Positions 10,029 to 42,195 of a DNA stretch of 64,000 bases are shown piece after piece (positions within the stretch are counted from its first letter, which is position 1; every line of letters begins with the position of its first letter). A program made the position numbers and the translations under genes. The notes below the pieces were generated by a model. It was given only the letters and a program-made list of their open reading frames with translations. It was not told the origin of the DNA and searched no databases. Origin of the DNA: Alkaliflexus imshenetskii DSM 15055 (lineage in GTDB: Bacteria > Bacteroidota > Bacteroidia > Bacteroidales > Marinilabiliaceae); contig NZ_KI912105.1 of the NCBI RefSeq assembly GCF_000517065.1, positions 19,773 to 83,772 of the forward strand, written 5' to 3'.

Positions 10029-11057
10029 CTATTCTGTCAGAGACTGCCGTTTTTCTGCCATCTTGAGTTGCTCGAGTAAATCTTCGATGGTTCTGAGTCT
10101 GATAGGTACGCCGTCAGGACCTGATAGGATGTATTCTCTCTGGCTGTCACTTCTGATTTCGACCTGTAGTCGGCTAAAAGGATCATCAGATGTAGTAAAT
10201 CCCTGACGCGAGAGGGCACGGCTCACCCATTTGTATTCAAGCCCTTTACCTATAAGACGGATGGATTTAACATGTGCACCGGCCATGGTAAAATGCCCTG
10301 TGGCATTGTCAAATAAAATTCCCTCCCTCTCAAAGAATTTACGGAACTCATTGGTGAGTACCAAATCCTCGGGAACACCAGTTTCCATAGGCAAACCGGC
10401 TGCCAAAAGCCAGACTTTATCTGCTGTTTGTAGTGCCAAATCGAGGTCGTGTGTTGATAGCAGCACGCCTATTTGCTTTTTATGGGCGAGATTTTTCAGC
10501 AGGTGCATTATCTCAACCCGTGAAGGTAAATCCAGAAAAGCTGTGGGTTCATCGAGAAGAATAAGCGGCGTTTCTTGCACGAGTGCTTTGGCAATGAGCG
10601 CCTTCTGCCTTTCGCCATCACTAAGTTCCATGAGGTTACGATTGGCAAAACCCTCGAGACCGGCATCACCGATGGCTTTAATAACCAGTTGCCGGTCCTT
10701 ACCCGTAAGCCGTCCAAAAAAACCAGTAAACGGACTACGCCCAAGCGCCACCAAATCATAAACAGTCATATTTGGAACCATTAACCGCTCTGTTAAAACC
10801 ACGCTTATGAGCCTTGCTTTGGTTGCTGCATTGAGTTTATCCGGATTTTTTCCGTTGATGTAAACATCACCAGATATTTTTGGAAGAAAGCCCGCAAAAG
10901 TTTTTAGCAAAGTTGATTTTCCTGCACCATTTGGCCCCAATAAACAGGCAAACTCACCCTGCATCAACTTAACGTTGATATTGGAATGAAGCGGAGAGCT
11001 GTTGCGCCCCTGTTTATATCCAACCGACAATGCTTTTGTTAAAATCAATTCGCTCAT
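10029..11057 (-). CDS. btuD: Cobalamin ABC transporter ATP-binding protein (BtuD/FecE-type)
   Basis: Walker A GPNGAGKSTLLKT, ABC signature LSDGERQKALIAKAL, Walker B LILLDEPTAFLDL and the H-loop STHDLDLAL make this a complete FecE-type ATPase. It is the third gene of an operon whose leader is a cobalamin riboswitch, so the substrate is most likely vitamin B12 or another corrinoid rather than siderophore. At 342 aa it is about 80 residues longer than usual; the extra C-terminal part (from about 255) includes GAHVKSIRLIGKGLEYKW and has no motif I recognise. 67 bp separate it from the permease gene upstream. Confidence 0.88.
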   Translation of the reverse strand: MSELILTKALSVGYKQGRNSSPLHSNINVKLMQGEFACLLGPNGAGKSTLLKTFAGFLPKISGDVYINGKNPDKLNAATKARLISVVLTERLMVPNMTVYDLVALGRSPFTGFFGRLTGKDRQLVIKAIGDAGLEGFANRNLMELSDGERQKALIAKALVQETPLILLDEPTAFLDLPSRVEIMHLLKNLAHKKQIGVLLSTHDLDLALQTADKVWLLAAGLPMETGVPEDLVLTNEFRKFFEREGILFDNATGHFTMAGAHVKSIRLIGKGLEYKWVSRALSRQGFTTSDDPFSRLQVEIRSDSQREYILSGPDGVPIRLRTIEDLLEQLKMAEKRQSLTE

Positions 11058-11124: not shown

Positions 11125-12174
11125 TCACCCTCCGGCCATTAGCTTTCTGTTGTTTAAAATGACTGAAATCACCACCGGAGCACCAATCATACTGGTAACT
11201 GCATTTATGGGTAAAGCGCCATCAAAACCGGGCAGGCGTGCAATTAAGTTGCTGAACAATGCAAGAATAGCTCCAGCTACCATCACCGCCGGCACAAGAA
11301 CTTGTTGGTTAGATGTTTTAAACAAACCCCGGGTAAGATGAGGCACAGCCAGTCCTAAAAAGGCAATAGGTCCGCAAAAGGCAGTGATAACCGCGGTAAG
11401 CAATCCGGTGCATGCCAAAATCAGAAATCGCGACATGCGGATGTTAACACCCAGATTGCTTGCATAATTATCACCTAAGACCATCAGATTGAGAGGTTTT
11501 ATCAATAAAAGAGAGCCTATAAGCCCGACCATCACCACAGGAAAAAACACCTCCATCCGAGTCCACGATACAGACGAAAAACTACCCAACCCCCAGATTA
11601 CGAAGGCATGCACATCCTCCTTCATACTATAAAACTTTAGCACACCTACGAGAGCAGATGCCGCATAACCAACCATAATGCCCGCAATGAGCAACATGGC
11701 ATTGTCGCGCAAACGGTTGGCCAGGAGCAACACCAGAAACAATATAGCCATTGCGCCTGCAAATGCAGCTGTAGTTACCGTCAGGTGACCTATCCATCCC
11801 AAGGCACTCAGTGCAAAACCACCAAAACTTCCCATCATAAGCACCATGGCCACACCTAAGCCGGCACCGGAACTCACACCCAAAATGGCAGGGTCGGCCA
11901 ACGGGTTGCGAAACAGTGCCTGCATCTGTAAGCCCCCAACTGCCAGACCGGCTCCGGCCAGAATTGCTGTTATGGCTTGTGGCAAACGTGACCTTTGGAT
12001 TATATAACTCCAGCTCTCAAGTTCCGTTTCATAGCCCAGCAGCCCCTTAACAACTTCTTTAAGCGGAATATTAACCGACCCCAGCGCAATGTTCAGCATA
12101 AACAATATCAACCCAATAATTAGAAGAATTGTGAGCCGCAAAAGATGCTTTCTTTTTTTAATTATTGCAGTCAT
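11125..12174 (-). CDS. btuC: Cobalamin ABC transporter permease (BtuC/FecCD family)
   Basis: A 349-aa polytopic protein with about ten hydrophobic segments. Family signatures include LPQAITAILAGAGLAVGGLQMQ, NPLADPAILGVSSGAGLGVA and CGPIAFLGLAVPHLTR, the last being the region that contacts the ATPase. Members form the transmembrane channel for B12 or iron-siderophore import. The start overlaps the stop of the binding-protein gene by 4 bp (ATGA), so the two are translationally coupled. The riboswitch upstream of the operon makes B12 the likely substrate. Confidence 0.9.
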   Translation of the reverse strand: MTAIIKKRKHLLRLTILLIIGLILFMLNIALGSVNIPLKEVVKGLLGYETELESWSYIIQRSRLPQAITAILAGAGLAVGGLQMQALFRNPLADPAILGVSSGAGLGVAMVLMMGSFGGFALSALGWIGHLTVTTAAFAGAMAILFLVLLLANRLRDNAMLLIAGIMVGYAASALVGVLKFYSMKEDVHAFVIWGLGSFSSVSWTRMEVFFPVVMVGLIGSLLLIKPLNLMVLGDNYASNLGVNIRMSRFLILACTGLLTAVITAFCGPIAFLGLAVPHLTRGLFKTSNQQVLVPAVMVAGAILALFSNLIARLPGFDGALPINAVTSMIGAPVVISVILNNRKLMAGG

Positions 12175-13304
12175 TTCAGTAGGTTAAAATACACTGGCTG
12201 GTGGTTGTCGAACAAACCGGGATGAAGATAGGCTGAGAGATCCTTCAAAATGATGTGTGGCTCTATCCACGCCTTCTCAAAAAACATGGAGTAAGCTGTG
12301 TTTGAATAGATTACTTTTCGATTTTTGTAAGCGCTGAACCCGGCGTAACGCTCGTCCATACGGTGAAGCTGATCATACGTAAAAGTATCAGGATGATTTA
12401 TCGTCAGAACCCAATAATCACATTCGTGACAATCAAAAAAAACCTTTTCGAAATCATAAGCAAGAGAGCCTCGTCCCGACACATTGGCATAAGGATAAGC
12501 GGCACCGGCATCTCTGAATAATTCTGCCAGGAAACTCTCGCCGGCAGGCAAGAACCATACATCCTGAAACAAATAACCTGTGGTTACTGAGGGACGAACC
12601 GAAACTGACGACGTCACATTAACTGCCTCGAAATATTGTTGCTCAACAGAAGCAAAATAGCGCAATGCATCAGCTTCACGATTGAAGAACGCACCGAAAA
12701 AAACAAGCCACTCCACGCGCCCCAATGGCACATTTTCAAGATAACCGGCATCTGGAATAACAACCAATCCTGCCTCTTTAAGCTGCTCATACTGATTATC
12801 CTTGAAAGGAGAAACAAATACAAATTGAGGATTTGATAGCAACAGCACCTCCATGTCTGGCGAAGAGGCCATTCCTACGTTTCGAATAAGCCGTTCGCTC
12901 AACCCTTGCTTAACAAATTCGTTGGAGATATACTCAGGTTCGGCAACGCTTTTCAGTGTTTGTAGCACGTCCAAAACATCGGCCATAATTACCTGAGTGG
13001 ACGAGAATGCTGACCAATTAAGAACCGGGGCTTTGATAGATGGAATACTCTCCAACTTAACTGTACCTGAATTATCGATAAAAAAATAGTCCGAAGCCTG
13101 AGTTGAGTCCCATGGATTGGCCACCTCCACAATTTTATCATCACCGAGATAATGTATTACAAAACCACGCGCATATTTGGGTCTATAAACAGAATCGGAA
13201 GTGGAAATAAGTTCAGTTACCGAAGTGTGTACCGAACGTGCAGGACCTGAACAGGACCATGAAAGAATTAATGACAGAATTGCAAGGCACAGTATCTTTG
13301 CCAT
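12171..13304 (-). CDS. btuF: Cobalamin ABC transporter substrate-binding lipoprotein (BtuF-like)
   Basis: First gene of the operon. The signal sequence ends in a lipobox (LILSWSC, cysteine at residue 18), so it is a lipid-anchored periplasmic binding protein. The body (377 aa) has the helical-backbone binding-protein layout: an N-terminal lobe with SVAEPEYISNEFV, then SPDMEVLLLSNPQFVFVSP and VEWLVFFGAFFNREADAL. It belongs to the FecB/BtuF class. Substrate assignment rests on the cobalamin riboswitch about 90 bp upstream. GGGAGA sits about 8 nt before the ATG, an unusually good ribosome-binding sequence for this phylum. Confidence 0.85.
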   Translation of the reverse strand: MAKILCLAILSLILSWSCSGPARSVHTSVTELISTSDSVYRPKYARGFVIHYLGDDKIVEVANPWDSTQASDYFFIDNSGTVKLESIPSIKAPVLNWSAFSSTQVIMADVLDVLQTLKSVAEPEYISNEFVKQGLSERLIRNVGMASSPDMEVLLLSNPQFVFVSPFKDNQYEQLKEAGLVVIPDAGYLENVPLGRVEWLVFFGAFFNREADALRYFASVEQQYFEAVNVTSSVSVRPSVTTGYLFQDVWFLPAGESFLAELFRDAGAAYPYANVSGRGSLAYDFEKVFFDCHECDYWVLTINHPDTFTYDQLHRMDERYAGFSAYKNRKVIYSNTAYSMFFEKAWIEPHIILKDLSAYLHPGLFDNHQPVYFNLLK

Positions 13305-13390
13305 AACTTTTTCTCCCGAAAGTTAACTGGTTCATAAGAAGATGGTGCGGTATTGGTCACCTTACCATCCGGTATTGATAAACGAACAAA

Positions 13391-13545
13391 GCAGGTTTTC
13401 TGGCTCTCCCTAATTTGCGACGCCTTCCCATCCTAATACTATCCGGACAGTGGCAATAAGTCGTAAAATTTGCAGGATTACAGCTGCGGGTACAGCTCCG
13501 GTTTTACACCGGATTCCCTCTTATGCACAAAGGCACCTTATTCAT
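13391..13545 (-). promoter_or_regulatory. Cobalamin (AdoCbl) riboswitch
   Basis: Read on the - strand from about 13540 it shows, in order, TAAGGTGCC, AAGAGGGAATCCGGTG, the GTAAAACCGGAGCTG arm, CCCGCAGCTGTAATCC, GGGAAGGCG and the 3' closing segment GCCAGAAAACCTGC. These are the conserved blocks of the cobalamin riboswitch, including the B12-box equivalent. It lies in the leader of btuFCD and should shut expression when B12 is abundant. The 60-90 nt between it and the btuF ATG is the expression platform; I see no strong T-tract terminator there, so control of translation is more likely (inference). Confidence 0.95.
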
Positions 13546-13550
13546 AATGG

Positions 13551-13558
13551 CAAAACTA
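13551..13558 (-). promoter_or_regulatory. -7 promoter box for the btu operon
   Basis: TAGTTTTG on the - strand fits TAnnTTTG. A start about 7 nt further on would begin the transcript right at the riboswitch 5' end, which supports the call. No clear -33 element. The rest of this gap (13559-13902) is AT-rich with nothing else recognised. Confidence 0.5.
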
Positions 13559-36319: not shown

Positions 36320-37897
36320 ATGACATTTAAAGAAGAGATAAAAAGGAGACGTACGTTTGGAATTATAAGTCACCCCGATGCCGGAAAAACCACACTTACA
36401 GAAAAGTTGCTTCTGTTTGGTGGTGCAATTCACGTGGCGGGGGCTGTTAAGTCTAACAAAATAAAGAAAACGGCGACCTCCGACTTCATGGAAATTGAGA
36501 AGCAGAGAGGAATATCGGTGGCTACCTCGGTCATGGGTTTTGATTATAACGGCTATAAGGTAAATATTCTGGATACCCCGGGTCACCAGGATTTTGCGGA
36601 AGATACTTACCGAACACTCACAGCAGTAGACAGTGTGATTATTGTGGTTGATGCGGCCAAAGGCGTAGAAACACAAACGCGCAAACTCATGGAAGTTTGC
36701 CGTATGCGTCACACGCCGGTAATTGTATTCATCAATAAGTTAGACCGCCCCGGCAAGGACCCTTTTGAGCTGCTCGATGAAGTGGAGGAGGAGCTAAAAA
36801 TAAAGGTGCGTCCGCTGGCCTGGCCAATGGGCAGTGGTGACCAGTTCCAAGGGGTGTACAATATATTTGAAGAGAGCCTATACCTGTTTACGCCAAACAA
36901 ACAAACACTCGAAGATGGTATCGAGATAAAGGACATACATGATCCCCAACTTGAAGAGTTTGTGACACCACGTGCCGCCTCAACCCTTCGAGAAGAGCTG
37001 GAGCTCATCGATGGTGTTTATCCCGAATTTGAGCATGAGGCGTACTTAAAAGGCACGCTGGCTCCGGTGTTTTTTGGAAGTGCATTAAACAACTTCGGAG
37101 TTCGTGAGTTGCTTCATGCATTCCTGAAACTTGCCCCTTCACCCCGCCCCTCAATCACCGATAAGCGCGTGGTTGAGCCAGAAGAAGAAGCCTTTACGGG
37201 ATTTGTGTTTAAAATTCACGCCAACATGGATCCCAACCACCGCAACCGTTTGGCGTTTGTAAAAATATGCTCCGGACATTTTCAAAGAAATACAAACTAT
37301 ATGCATGTGGGACTAAAAAAACAGATGAAGTTCAGCAGTCCAACAGCATTTATGGCCGAAAAGAAATCCATTATCGATGAAGCATTTCCAGGAGACATCG
37401 TTGGCATACCCGATTCTGGCAACTTTAAAATTGGCGATACACTCACCGAAGGCGAGATATTAAACTTTAAAGGTTTGCCAAGCTTTTCGCCGGAACTGTT
37501 CCGCTACATTGAAAATGCAGACCCAATGAAATCCAAACAGTTGGCAAAAGGCATTGATCAGTTGATGGACGAAGGTGTGGCTCAGCTTTTTGTGAGTCAG
37601 TTTAACGGACGTAAGATCATTGGTACAGTTGGCGCATTGCAGTTTGAGGTTATTCAGTACCGTTTGCTACATGAATATAGTGCCTCATGCCGTTACGAAC
37701 CCATCAATCTGTACAAAGCATGTTGGATAAAGTCAAATGACAAAGCCGAGTTGGAGGATTTCAAAAAACGCAAGAATCAATATATGGCTAAAGATAAATA
37801 TGGCCGTGACGTATTTCTGGCAGATTCATCCTACATGCTGCAAATGGCACAGGAGAGTTTTAAAAAACTTGAGTTTCATTTTACGTCTGAATTCTAA
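36320..37897 (+). CDS. prfC: Peptide chain release factor 3
   Basis: 525 aa translational GTPase with G1 [15 protein letters not shown], the RF3-specific [13 protein letters not shown] segment, switch [14 protein letters not shown]3 [12 protein letters not shown] and G4 [10 protein letters not shown], then EF-Tu-like domains 2 and 3 (to [15 protein letters not shown]). The length equals E. coli RF3 (529). It recycles RF1/RF2 from the ribosome after termination. Confidence 0.96.
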
Positions 37898-38054
37898 AGC
37901 AAGCGCTTATAACTTTTGATTTTCTCCGCTATTAACGGTAAATTTGATTTTCATTAGCAGGCGATTCCGTAAACCACCAATATCTTAGCTTTTAAGGGTT
38001 TTCATGAAGAAAATCCGGGGGAATTGCATTTTTAAAAATCAACAGAGAGACACC

Positions 38055-38447
38055 ATGAGCACCAATACAATTGAAGAAGGATTGCGCCTCACCCTTGAAA
38101 AGCGGGTGGAAAATGAAGAATTGGCAAAAAACATAGGCACCTCCAGGGTTTCAGTTTTGGCCACCTCATCGTTAATCCTGTTTATGGAGAAGGCTGTATC
38201 GATGCTTATAGAGCCGTATCTGGAAGAGGGAACAGAAACTGTCAGTTCCGAAATCAACATCAAACACTTTAAGCCGGTTGGCGAGGGCGTATTGATAAGA
38301 TGCCTTGTACATCTGAAATTTATCGAGAAGAATAAGTTGTTTTTTGATGTGGTGATTTTGGATGAGAACCATGAAGAGGTTGCCATTGGTGCGCACAGCC
38401 GATACATTGTTCAATTGGAGAAATTTAACAAGCTTATTGAGCGTTAA
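38055..38447 (+). CDS. Hot-dog thioesterase family protein
   Basis: The start at 38055 (MSTNTIEEGLRLTLEKRVENE) is preferred over an ATG 17 codons upstream that adds a basic tail. 130 aa with LATSSLILFMEKAVSMLIEPYLEEGTETV and IKHFKPVGEGVLIRC, the pattern of the fluoroacetyl-CoA thioesterase-like group of hot-dog proteins. Members hydrolyse short acyl-CoAs; the real substrate is unknown. The next gene follows after 14 bp, so the two form an operon. Confidence 0.8.
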   Translation: MSTNTIEEGLRLTLEKRVENEELAKNIGTSRVSVLATSSLILFMEKAVSMLIEPYLEEGTETVSSEINIKHFKPVGEGVLIRCLVHLKFIEKNKLFFDVVILDENHEEVAIGAHSRYIVQLEKFNKLIER

Positions 38448-38461
38448 CATACGTTTGGGTT

Positions 38462-39043
38462 ATGGATTTTTTGGATACATTCTGGATTACCTGGATATTT
38501 ATTCCCCTGATGATTTTTTTCGCCAGGGTTTCGGATGTTACAATCGGAACTCTTAGAATCGTTTTTGTATCAAAAGGTTTTAAGTTTCTCGCACCCATAC
38601 TGGGCTTTTTCGAAGTGTTTATATGGCTTTTAGCCATGAGCAAGATATTCCAGAACCTCGACAACTGGCTCTATTATGTAGCCTACTCGGCAGGCTTTGC
38701 AGTTGGAAATTATATTGGATTGCTTATTGAAGAGCGATTGGCACTTGGTTTTGTGAATCTTCGAATCATAACGCTTGCCTCTGGCGATGCACTCATAAAA
38801 CGGTTGTCGACCGAAGGTTTTGGTGTGACCACTACAGAGGCAATGGGCACACGTGGACGTGTGAATGTGATTTACTGCGTCATCAAGCGCAGTGACTATA
38901 AACATGTAGCAAAGATAATTCTTGAATACAACCCAAAAGCATTTTATACCATTGAAGACATCCGGTTTGCCAATCAGGGTGTATTCCCTATCAGATCGAT
39001 GATGCGTGGCTATGGAAACTTTCCGTGGCGCAAAGGAAAATAG
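38462..39043 (+). CDS. UPF0316/DUF2179 membrane protein
   Basis: 193 aa with three membrane helices in the first 90 residues (WITWIFIPLMIFFARV, LAPILGFFEVFIWLLAM, YVAYSAGFAVGNYIGLL) and a C-terminal cytoplasmic DUF2179 domain (about 100-185: GFGVTTTEAMGTRGRVNVIYCVIKR is its core). The family function is unknown; DUF2179 domains bind small ligands such as cyclic dinucleotides in related proteins (inference by family). Second gene of an operon with the thioesterase. Confidence 0.88.
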   Translation: MDFLDTFWITWIFIPLMIFFARVSDVTIGTLRIVFVSKGFKFLAPILGFFEVFIWLLAMSKIFQNLDNWLYYVAYSAGFAVGNYIGLLIEERLALGFVNLRIITLASGDALIKRLSTEGFGVTTTEAMGTRGRVNVIYCVIKRSDYKHVAKIILEYNPKAFYTIEDIRFANQGVFPIRSMMRGYGNFPWRKGK

Positions 39044-39077: not shown

Positions 39078-39108
39078 TTGCAGAAACCCTTATAAACGGC
39101 TATATTTG
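39078..39108 (+). promoter_or_regulatory. Promoter of the candidate structured RNA
   Basis: TTG (39078-39080) and TATATTTG (39101-39108) lie 20 bp apart, the best match to the Bacteroidetes -33/-7 consensus in the window. It is not in front of any coding gene but in front of the folded RNA, with an expected start near 39114. Confidence 0.65.
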
Positions 39109-39113
39109 TAGTA

Positions 39114-39354
39114 AGATCATTGACATAAAAGAAACCGCATCAGCTGCTAGTTATTGTTAAACTCAACACTATCAACATACCGAGTAAGCTATTTGTTTCA
39201 AGGACAGGCCTCACCTTCGGGTTATCTTCGTGATACGGAGGATCTTCGCGAAGCAGGTGCACTCAAATTCCTGTTCTATAGGAGTTTAATTAGACTCAGT
39301 TGATGCGGCTCCCATCATAAAAGCAGCCTTTCTCACGGAGGGCTGCTTTTTATT
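39114..39354 (+). ncRNA. Candidate structured small RNA, 6S RNA-like fold
   Basis: Nested long-range pairings close one rod-shaped structure. These are 12 bp (39135-39146 with 39297-39308, one G-U), 8 bp TTAAACTC/GAGTTTAA (39157-39164 with 39282-39289), CTAT/ATAG (39169-39172 with 39278-39281), 8 bp AGGACAGG/CCTGTTCT (39201-39208 with 39270-39277), CACCT/AGGTG (39212-39216 with 39255-39259), and a small apical hairpin. Internal loops between stems give an interrupted rod of 174 nt, the size and shape of 6S RNA, which binds RNA polymerase. There is no open reading frame. A promoter lies before it and an intrinsic terminator ends it. Identity as 6S is inference; SRP RNA and tmRNA features are absent. 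Confidence 0.6.
39319..39354 (+). terminator. Intrinsic terminator of the structured RNA
   Basis: 10-bp perfect stem aaaagcagcc / ggctgctttt with a 12-nt loop, followed by tatttg. Because of the A-rich 5' arm it can also serve the - strand gene ending at 39382. Confidence 0.85.
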
Positions 39355-39381: not shown

Positions 39382-42195
39382 TCACCACCAAACCTGTTTG
39401 CCATTTTTGTCTAAAGTAAAGATGCGTTCTTCCCAGCCTTTAGAGTGATTCTTCAACCAATATATTCCACCCATTGGCACATTCTGATAATTCAGGAAGT
39501 CGGAATCTGCAATTATTCTGCCCATGCTAACCCAATCCTGTATATCCCAATAAAACAACTCATATTCATCGCCCACCTCCACCATATTGCCATCATTGCG
39601 GGATGCAAAACGAATTTTTGAGATACGGGTGGCTTTTGGTAACGCTAAGCCTACCCATGCCCCCGATGGCTCCGGTGCATCAAAATAGGTCAACACATCA
39701 CCATCAAAAACCATCTCCTTTGTTCTACCTGAATTATTCCTGCTCCCATTGGTTCCAATAATGCTTCCTTTTATTGAATCTCCATTTGTATCGTAAAAAA
39801 CAATTTCATTTATATTGCATCGTCCCTCATCCGGTCCAAAGTATCTTAAGTACTTGAATTTATCAATCACGTCCACATCGATAATGTGAAATAATGGGTC
39901 GGTCATATCCTGAGTGATTATACCAATAGTAACAGCATCAGAAAAATCAGACTTATTGGCACCATGAAATTCGCCGCCTACAATAAGTTTGTGATAGTTT
40001 TCATCAACAAGTCTGTTGGGAAATTTTCGATTCAAAGTAATGTCACTAAAATTTGTGTCCGAAACTTTTATATGCTGCACCATACCCAGAGAATCAAAGT
40101 AGAAAGCATCATTAAATGCCTTAAACTGCCCATTTACAAAGAATGCAGGCAAATACATTCCTCTTGGTTCAAGATCCTGAAATTTAACACTATTCTTTCT
40201 CGTTTTTTCACCCCATGCCGTCACCACCCAACGCTTATTGTTGAAAACCAGCAGGTAACCAAATCTATTTCCGTCCGACACATCATATTGTATGTCCACA
40301 TCTATGCTCTTTACATCGCAATATTCTGATGTAACATCTTTAAAATATGGATTTCTAAACTGATTTGGAATGCTCTCTTTCCCTTTATTAATTGCAAAAA
40401 GGCTGTTCCTGTTGATTGAATATGTTTCCCGATATACTTTCCCTTTGGCAAAGATATCCACCCAGGTTCCAGCTCCAACAGGATTGTGACAGTTATTTTG
40501 AATTGTGTTTCCCTTCAGATCAAATATTACACTCCAGCTATGACCGGCATCACGTTCGGGGTAGTTAAAAACAAAATCAGTGGCACATGCTACTCCCATT
40601 GACCTCAACACCATTGTTTGAAAAGCGGTCTGTTCCACACACGAACCATATGTATAATCCAATAATTTTATGGGACTAATAGCTCCAAAAGAGGCATAGG
40701 ATCCGGACCAGTGAAAGCGATTGGTTATCTCACTTATTTTCTGTGCGGCTCTTATGGTATTGTCAATAAAGTCATCATTCATATTTTCAGCTTTTTCTAT
40801 GTGCCAGATAAAATTGTCGCACATCTGCTGATCCGGCAATTGAACCAATATGCCATCGGCCTCAGAAAATGCCAGTATTCTACCTGTCTCTCTGTTCCTT
40901 ACCTGATATCCCCCGTTTTTCATTGGAATAAAAGCCCAAAGCTGATTCTGAAAGCCGTGGTCGTTATAGGTTATGAGCCATTCGCTCTCTCCGAAAGGGA
41001 ATGCATCAATGGCCTTTGTCAGGCCGGAATCATCAAATAGAAGTTGATATAAGTTATCATCTTTTGCAACAATTCGTATGGGCCATTCCTTTTGCGGGTT
41101 TGGCTCAATGTTGATATTATTCTCGTTGATAAGGGAATCCGCCGCGATGGTTATTCTGCCATAGGAGTTGCTAAAATAATACTTTCCTTCGGAGATAACC
41201 GACTCAGGAAACTTCATAAATATATAATCCGGAATAAAAACGTAATCAAGCAGAATACTTTTATCCAGAGAAACTATTTTTAATATATGCTCGCCTGCAT
41301 TTAAATTGGCTGTAAATTCGACAGGAGGGTCTTCGTTATTCACTGTATGCCAATTGCCCGTTGAGGGAAATATGAAATCACCAACGACCAGGCTGTCGAT
41401 CATGATGCGGATATTTGCTGCTGTGGGGTGTCCATTCACATAATGCAAATTAAAAAGCTGGAGTCCATCTTCCCGGGCATTAAATTCCATCTCAAACATG
41501 AGCGAACTGTCATTACAGATTCGGCGTGTATAACCTCCTGACGCACCATTTACACTAACCTTAAGAGATTCAATATCGCAATGCAATTCGGACTCAATGT
41601 GAGATTCAGCTCCTTTAAAAACAGAGTAATCCAAAAAATCGCCATATTTATTATATGCATAACTTCTCCAATAAACTGTATCAGAGAACCCAATTTTATA
41701 AGGAAGAATGTATTCACAAAAAATCTCAAAAGGATATTGGCGACACCATTCGTATTTATAATAAATTAAAAATGCAGACTCAATTTGTTCAATCAAAAAT
41801 TCAGCGGTAACTCGTTTAATATCATATTCAACGCTAATCAAACCATCAAGATTAAGAGCTGAGTATTGCCTAATATACTCATGATTTCTCTTTTCCAAGT
41901 GAGTACCATAAACACTACGATAAATATCATTTATGCTGTCGATTCCGCTACCAAACATTGAATAATGATATGCCATATTAGATATCAGATATTCAGCAGC
42001 TTTAAGTTTGAGAGAATCAGGATTCGTTTTATTATAATATACTAAGACTTTCTCCAATTCCACTCTGTTATCTCCGGCCATTTTCAAAGCCTTATTTGTT
42101 TCGGAAGAAAAGGGACTACATGCGGATAGAAACAATAGACTCAAGAAGAAGACTAGTCTTCCTCCAGCATTTAAGATTGAAACAGGAATTTTCAT
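39382..42195 (-). CDS. Large transglutaminase-like lipoprotein
   Basis: 937 aa, signal with lipobox (FLSACSPF, cysteine at about residue 26). Residues 480-600 form a transglutaminase-like domain with nucleophile C519 in YGSCVEQTAFQTMVLRSMG, H552 in DAGHSWSV and an Asp in AGTWVDI, so a papain-type catalytic triad seems intact. The region before it is mostly beta, with a segment (QVRNRETGRILAFSEADG) resembling a lectin-like repeat. The C-terminal 150 residues (RMFDG-like EMVFDGDVLTYFDAPEPS, IRFASRND) look like an F5/8-type discoidin domain. It is probably a surface-exposed peptidase or cross-linking enzyme. It lies 21 bp downstream of an O-antigen-ligase-like gene and belongs to the accessory locus. 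Confidence 0.72.
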   Translation of the reverse strand: MKIPVSILNAGGRLVFFLSLLFLSACSPFSSETNKALKMAGDNRVELEKVLVYYNKTNPDSLKLKAAEYLISNMAYHYSMFGSGIDSINDIYRSVYGTHLEKRNHEYIRQYSALNLDGLISVEYDIKRVTAEFLIEQIESAFLIYYKYEWCRQYPFEIFCEYILPYKIGFSDTVYWRSYAYNKYGDFLDYSVFKGAESHIESELHCDIESLKVSVNGASGGYTRRICNDSSLMFEMEFNAREDGLQLFNLHYVNGHPTAANIRIMIDSLVVGDFIFPSTGNWHTVNNEDPPVEFTANLNAGEHILKIVSLDKSILLDYVFIPDYIFMKFPESVISEGKYYFSNSYGRITIAADSLINENNINIEPNPQKEWPIRIVAKDDNLYQLLFDDSGLTKAIDAFPFGESEWLITYNDHGFQNQLWAFIPMKNGGYQVRNRETGRILAFSEADGILVQLPDQQMCDNFIWHIEKAENMNDDFIDNTIRAAQKISEITNRFHWSGSYASFGAISPIKLLDYTYGSCVEQTAFQTMVLRSMGVACATDFVFNYPERDAGHSWSVIFDLKGNTIQNNCHNPVGAGTWVDIFAKGKVYRETYSINRNSLFAINKGKESIPNQFRNPYFKDVTSEYCDVKSIDVDIQYDVSDGNRFGYLLVFNNKRWVVTAWGEKTRKNSVKFQDLEPRGMYLPAFFVNGQFKAFNDAFYFDSLGMVQHIKVSDTNFSDITLNRKFPNRLVDENYHKLIVGGEFHGANKSDFSDAVTIGIITQDMTDPLFHIIDVDVIDKFKYLRYFGPDEGRCNINEIVFYDTNGDSIKGSIIGTNGSRNNSGRTKEMVFDGDVLTYFDAPEPSGAWVGLALPKATRISKIRFASRNDGNMVEVGDEYELFYWDIQDWVSMGRIIADSDFLNYQNVPMGGIYWLKNHSKGWEERIFTLDKNGKQVWW

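Follow-up and report, generated by a model that had tools for sequence, protein, structure and literature searches.

Identity of a non-coding locus in Alkaliflexus imshenetskii

What is encoded between two convergent genes, at 38462-39043 (+) and 39382-42195 (-), in a 64,000-nucleotide stretch (the window) of the genome of Alkaliflexus imshenetskii DSM 15055? The initial annotation had read a -33/-7 promoter, a 174-nt rod of nested stems and a 10-bp terminator in this gap, with no ORF, and had proposed a 6S-like RNA. We found no ORF of at least 60 aa overlapping the locus, and the following features were identified.

39078-39080, +: TTG of the -33 element (from the sequence and from TTG spacing in homologous loci)
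39101-39108, +: -7 element TATATTTG, of the form TAnnTTTG, which is exact in 46 of 70 homologous loci
Roughly 39113-39352, +: predicted primary 6S transcript
39135-39308, +: 6S RNA core structure, 174 nt (from the RF01693 and R1 matches)
39319-39352, +: intrinsic terminator, a 10-bp stem (39319-39328/39341-39350) followed by a T-run (from the sequence and from homologous loci)

We conclude, with a probability of about 0.94, that the locus is a single-copy 6S RNA gene with its own primary-sigma promoter and terminator, whose product would mimic an open promoter, sequester RNA polymerase and release it upon pRNA synthesis. It is thus an ordinary, expected housekeeping RNA of a known kind, and the gene is worth annotating. 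Less expected is that in this family the gene no longer occupies its customary position next to zapA and rny, and that it carries a start-of-transcript signal like that of ribosomal RNA operons.

Infernal searches with the Rfam 6S, 6S-Flavo and Bacteroidales families agree with the 6S-like identity. In the 64-kb window, RF01693 (Bacteroidales-1), which Rfam labels "6S-Bacteroidales RNA suggested", matched at 39142-39316 (+) with 64.3 bits (E 4.6e-8), barely exceeding its gathering score of 60 bits; there is one copy in the whole 4.12-Mb genome. 6S-Flavo (RF01685) matched over the same bases with 35.3 bits (E 0.0014 in a 601-base search), below its gathering score of 85 bits, and the RNA is not filed in that family; this score was reached in no genome searched here. 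The generic 6S model RF00013 had no match in the Alkaliflexus genome, whereas E. coli, B. subtilis and others do match. R1, a covariance model that we built from 26 same-family sequences, matched at 39133-39310 with 154 bits, the Alkaliflexus sequence itself being part of the model. The locus has the anatomy by which 6S RNA is defined, a rod of ~180-200 nt with a closing stem, a central bubble and an apical arm (PMC8876501). Its stems are backed by covariation, and it is an independent, single, non-coding gene with its own promoter and terminator.

Elsewhere in the window, an ordinary cobalamin riboswitch (RF00174) is found at 13373-13555 (-) with 99.7 bits. It lies directly upstream of a putative cobalamin/iron uptake operon on the minus strand, whose functions were read by eye from the sequence.

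12171-13304, -: uptake operon binding protein
11125-12174, -: uptake operon permease
10029-11057, -: uptake operon ATPase

Promoter and terminator

The primary-sigma consensus of Bacteroidota is TTTG/TAnnTTTG (PMC7366714). The 6S promoter fits this consensus, with a spacer of 20 nt between the -33 TTG and TATATTTG, and it is conserved in homologous loci, which bears out the promoter of the initial annotation. The 46 exact TAnnTTTG copies lie at most 75 nt upstream of the RNA (shuffles: mean 3.4, maximum 8), and a TTG precedes the -7 box by 18-22 nt, mostly 20, in 47 of the 70 loci. The terminator was likewise found as described, and a stem-loop with a T-run lies downstream in 53/70 homologous loci (shuffled: 21.9). 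A generic sigma-70/terminator scan returned nothing at the site and missed the 10-bp terminator too; it was blank at the promoter because -33/-7 promoters lie outside its design. The upstream neighbours (38004-39043, +; 36320-37897, +) comprise a DUF5698/DUF2179 membrane protein, a thioesterase-like protein (FlK/4HBT) and peptide chain release factor 3.

Structure of the RNA

The 174-nt rod consists of the following elements.

39135-39146/39297-39308, +: closing stem P1, 12 bp (all 9 modelled pairs covary in wide alignments)
39157-39164/39282-39289, +: helix P2, 8 bp (AAACUC/GAGUUU nearly invariant)
39165-39181, +: 5' strand of the central bubble, unpaired, with conserved ACUCAACA; likely pRNA start region, a role taken from 6S biology (PMC8876501)
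39182-39264, +: apical (internal) arm, with compensatory changes in nearly every pair
39182-39184/39262-39264, +: GAG/CUC helix of the apical arm
39188-39203/39246-39260, +: variable helix of the apical arm
39192-39199/39250-39257, +: 8-bp apical helix
39209-39212/39238-39241, +: CCUC/GAGG helix of the apical arm, whose tip is UUCG-capped
39265-39281, +: 3' strand of the central bubble, with a small CCUGU..AUAGG hairpin (from the family alignment, and de novo outside the family)

Folding of 39110-39354 yielded -77.1 kcal/mol (z = -4.9), and none of 200 shuffles was as good. When the 26 same-family sequences were aligned with MAFFT, with no structure imposed, 30 of the 52 pairs showed changes on both sides and 96.6% of cells were paired, compared with 34-47% when the helices were slid by 1-3 columns; none of 500 shuffles reached any structure measure of this alignment. 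P1, the main apical helices and the bubble hairpin were recovered de novo from 44 sequences outside the family, a partly dependent sample as these were found with the models, although the alignment was made by sequence alone to limit circularity and was not fitted to the structure. Here all nine P1 pairs had two-sided changes. In a model-fitted alignment of 72 rows, 50/52 pairs covary. P1, P2, the GAG/CUC helix and the small 3'-bubble hairpin are missing from the Rfam consensus, yet all are supported. The near-invariance of P2 is as expected if polymerase reads this helix.

Compensatory changes are thus abundant, and the prospect raised by the initial annotation, that the stems might fail to covary in relatives, did not materialise. 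The rod and its stems are real, but the minimum-energy pairing of the middle does not hold: when the sequence is folded on its own, the lowest-energy solution has GGACAGG paired to CCUGUUC across the bubble, unlike the conserved structure. We prefer the conserved structure because it covaries.

Distribution and genomic neighbourhood

Among the 149 genomes sampled from the order, 108 have a single R1 match each, and RF01693 detects 36/149, all among these 108. The initial annotation had called 6S RNA in Bacteroidota divergent and often unannotated, and these counts agree. R1 matched 40/149 genomes of the class sample and 17/118 of the phylum sample, all 17 within the class, both counts being lower bounds due to stricter filters. 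Of 61 sampled genomes of relatives, 37 have a match at E <= 0.001, almost always a single one. The nearest relatives of this member of the Marinilabiliaceae by the neighbouring protein are Natronoflexus, Geofilum and Alkalitalea (81-83% identity), in whose named loci the RNA is at the same place with the same upstream gene. One genome of the family, G026, has two RF01693 matches above the cut-off (C36:3467-3642, L012, and C51:183096-183274; 92.3 and 83.3 bits), which reflects either a genuine duplication or contamination, which amounts to 5% in that assembly. As all five 6S-Flavo matches in the class coincide with R1 matches, Bacteroidales-1 and 6S-Flavo look like one RNA family.

The 18 distant loci that were examined in full all have zapA (PF05164) on one side of the RNA and rny (PF12072) on the other, both genes being in line with the RNA. 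By coordinates, 78/108 genomes of the order have it 33-498 nt upstream of a co-oriented RNase Y domain match, and 30/108 do not. This rny type occurs in 71 of the 72 genomes detected by R1 only, whereas 29 of the 36 genomes detected by RF01693 have a free-standing gene, which means that RF01693 mainly recognises the free-standing type. The window's family belongs to the latter, with the gene away from zapA-rny and its own -33/-7 promoter. The 6S gene of E. coli also adjoins zapA, and this shared neighbourhood supports descent from canonical 6S.

Could Bacteroidales-1 instead be a trans-acting or protein-binding small RNA and not a functional 6S RNA? Rfam merely suggests 6S for this family, the 2010 paper gave it no function, and RF00013 does not match the Alkaliflexus RNA. 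However, the coincident matches equate it with 6S-Flavo, its relatives have zapA as a neighbour, and its anatomy is that of 6S. Moreover, a 6S homologue of Bacteroides (B. thetaiotaomicron) and its pRNAs, which form two classes, were detected by dRNA-seq (PMC7366714). We consider this alternative very improbable. A 6S transcript has also been described from Flavobacterium psychrophilum (PMC9723704). That the rod arose by chance, or is the 3' UTR of the DUF5698/DUF2179 gene, which is on the same strand and ends 91 nt upstream, is already refuted by conservation that does not depend on this neighbour: the RNA's own promoter is kept in position and spacing, its stems covary, and the DUF5698/DUF2179 gene adjoins it only in the closest relatives.

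Proposed function

In established 6S biology, RNA polymerase holoenzyme binds the bubble like melted promoter DNA, and the 5' strand of the bubble is the template for pRNA (PMC8876501). Polymerase binding, pRNA synthesis with its start site and a growth-phase role are transferred to the Alkaliflexus 6S RNA from other bacteria. Accordingly modelled, the ~174-nt rod, with its bubble between P2 and the apical arm, would imitate an open promoter and so occupy the holoenzyme, the apical arm standing in for upstream promoter DNA. When nutrients are exhausted, holding of the holoenzyme by 6S would damp housekeeping transcription. When nucleotides return, polymerase would transcribe the 5' side of the bubble and continue into P2, yielding a short pRNA that is predicted to be near 5'-GUUGAGUUUAACAAU-3' (template about 39154-39168). 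This would unwind P2, upon which 6S would refold and polymerase would be released.

We do not claim promoter mimicry at the level of sequence, since TAnnTTTG-like matches in the bubble are not clearly better than in shuffles. When the 5' strand of the bubble was complemented, such a match at >=5/6 bases was found in 42/70 loci (shuffles: mean 32, maximum 45), and the best matches of the remaining strands were unconvincing as well.

The zapA-rny spacer

Genes of the rny type have a T-run immediately after the closing stem, and P1 thus probably doubles as the terminator. These genes mostly have no -33/-7 promoter right upstream (L054, L057-L060, L065-L072, L074-L077); their transcription may come from zapA or else depend on a different kind of promoter.

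The zapA-rny spacers of the Alkaliflexus genome and its family are mostly about 100-140 nt long, and R1 finds no 6S RNA in them. Most of these spacers contain a hairpin of 50-80 nt that starts with ACCCGCATT or similar and ends in the complement and a T-run. The conserved form of this hairpin is ACCCGCATT...TGCG(G)TTTT, found in genomes with 6S elsewhere. A simple pattern catches the hairpin in 24/31 spacers, one of these being spurious, and a few more were seen by eye.

Hairpin of the probable relic type: L164 (Alkaliflexus, G000:C5, just upstream of rny at 3870778), L161, L162, L166-L172, L201-L221

Many rny-type 6S genes start with the same letters as the spacer hairpin. Most simply, the hairpin is probably a relic: the closing stem would have remained behind when the core of 6S moved away, and would now serve rny as a terminator or leader element. 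Alternatively, a terminator of unrelated origin may have arrived at these letters by convergence.

A boxA-like element in the leader

An element of the form G[AT]TC[AT]TTGA lies upstream of P1, after the -7 box or the zapA stop.

39115-39123, +: leader element GATCATTGA, boxA-like by its likeness to the leader element of the genome's own 16S rRNA

The element is found again in 6S leaders throughout Bacteroidia, at >=8/9 bases in 46/98 leaders (shuffles: mean 3, maximum 9). It is exact in 36/98, with ~0.001 copies expected per 60-nt stretch of the Alkaliflexus genome. The sequence GTTCTTTGA, which we take to resemble boxA, lies at -118 of a 16S rRNA gene of the same genome (L248, G000:C5). This leader was taken from ordinary stretches covering about a tenth of the genome; the four small contigs contain no rRNA. 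GATCATTGA and GTTCTTTGA differ in 2/9 bases, both within the A/T variation of 6S leaders, and represent the same element. Five of six other Bacteroidota rRNA operons, from plasmid records, have this element too, and a near variant is seen in the sixth. The boxA of E. coli rRNA is a binding site for NusB-S10 through which the antitermination complex is recruited (PMC10250234, PMC4807359). By analogy, the 6S leader element would bind NusB-S10 and modify the elongating polymerase.

It is possible, though on balance unlikely, that GATCATTGA is a second promoter box or a chance occurrence and not a boxA: GTTCTTTG resembles a weak -7 box (TAnnTTTG), and about half of the loci, including most Bacteroides-type leaders, lack the element. 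However, in the window's family it lies a few bases downstream of a perfect -7 box, in the genome's own rRNA operon about 60 nt downstream of the -7 box there, and the number of exact copies argues against chance. As a boxA-like element, the copy in the window may be a vestige, because GATCATTGA is near the predicted transcript start.

The history that we favour, with moderate confidence, is that 6S of Bacteroidia was ancestrally located between zapA and rny, with an rRNA-type boxA on its precursor, so that the Nus antitermination machinery known from rRNA operons may take part in its transcription. The gene would then have left the operon and become autonomous in the window's family, while a shortened closing-stem hairpin stayed before rny; Bacteroidales-1 and 6S-Flavo would form a single family, and no more than about a quarter of it is currently recognised in the order. 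The literature searched, to which the main 6S survey did not belong, contained no earlier description of the relocation, the putative relic or the boxA-like leader, and neither of the two papers in it with both 'boxA' and '6S RNA' has, by title and abstract, a boxA within 6S as its subject.

Significance and comparison with known RNAs

With the corrected full-length structure (closing stem, bubble hairpin and P2), 6S can be found in most sampled Bacteroidales genomes, not in a quarter of them. The recurrent zapA-6S-rny address helps to locate 6S where the sequence has drifted. The shared boxA-like leader suggests that 6S and rRNA transcription are linked, a connection that can be tested and that would tie a polymerase-sequestering RNA to the ribosome-making machinery.

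The RF01693 match spans the whole length of the model, and both have AAACUCA...GGAGUUU and the UUCG-tipped apical arm in common. In the RF01693 consensus the closing stem, P2 and the bubble hairpin are single-stranded, whereas all three are supported in the RNA of the Alkaliflexus family. 6S-Flavo (RF01685) covers the same RNA, but is a shorter model. Ms1 RNA of Actinobacteria is also a 6S-like small RNA that binds RNA polymerase (PMC9130861). Ms1 binds the core enzyme and belongs to other bacteria, and nothing links it to the Alkaliflexus RNA.

Canonical 6S RNA (RF00013; E. coli ssrS, B. subtilis 6S-1) is alike in size and in the succession of closing stem, central bubble and apical arm. Unlike it, the Alkaliflexus RNA has no RF00013 match, has a -33/-7 promoter and is free-standing in its family. 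The zapA neighbour of E. coli 6S is shared by most relatives. B. subtilis 6S-1 also has a small hairpin in the 3' strand of its bubble (PMC8876501), as does the Alkaliflexus RNA.
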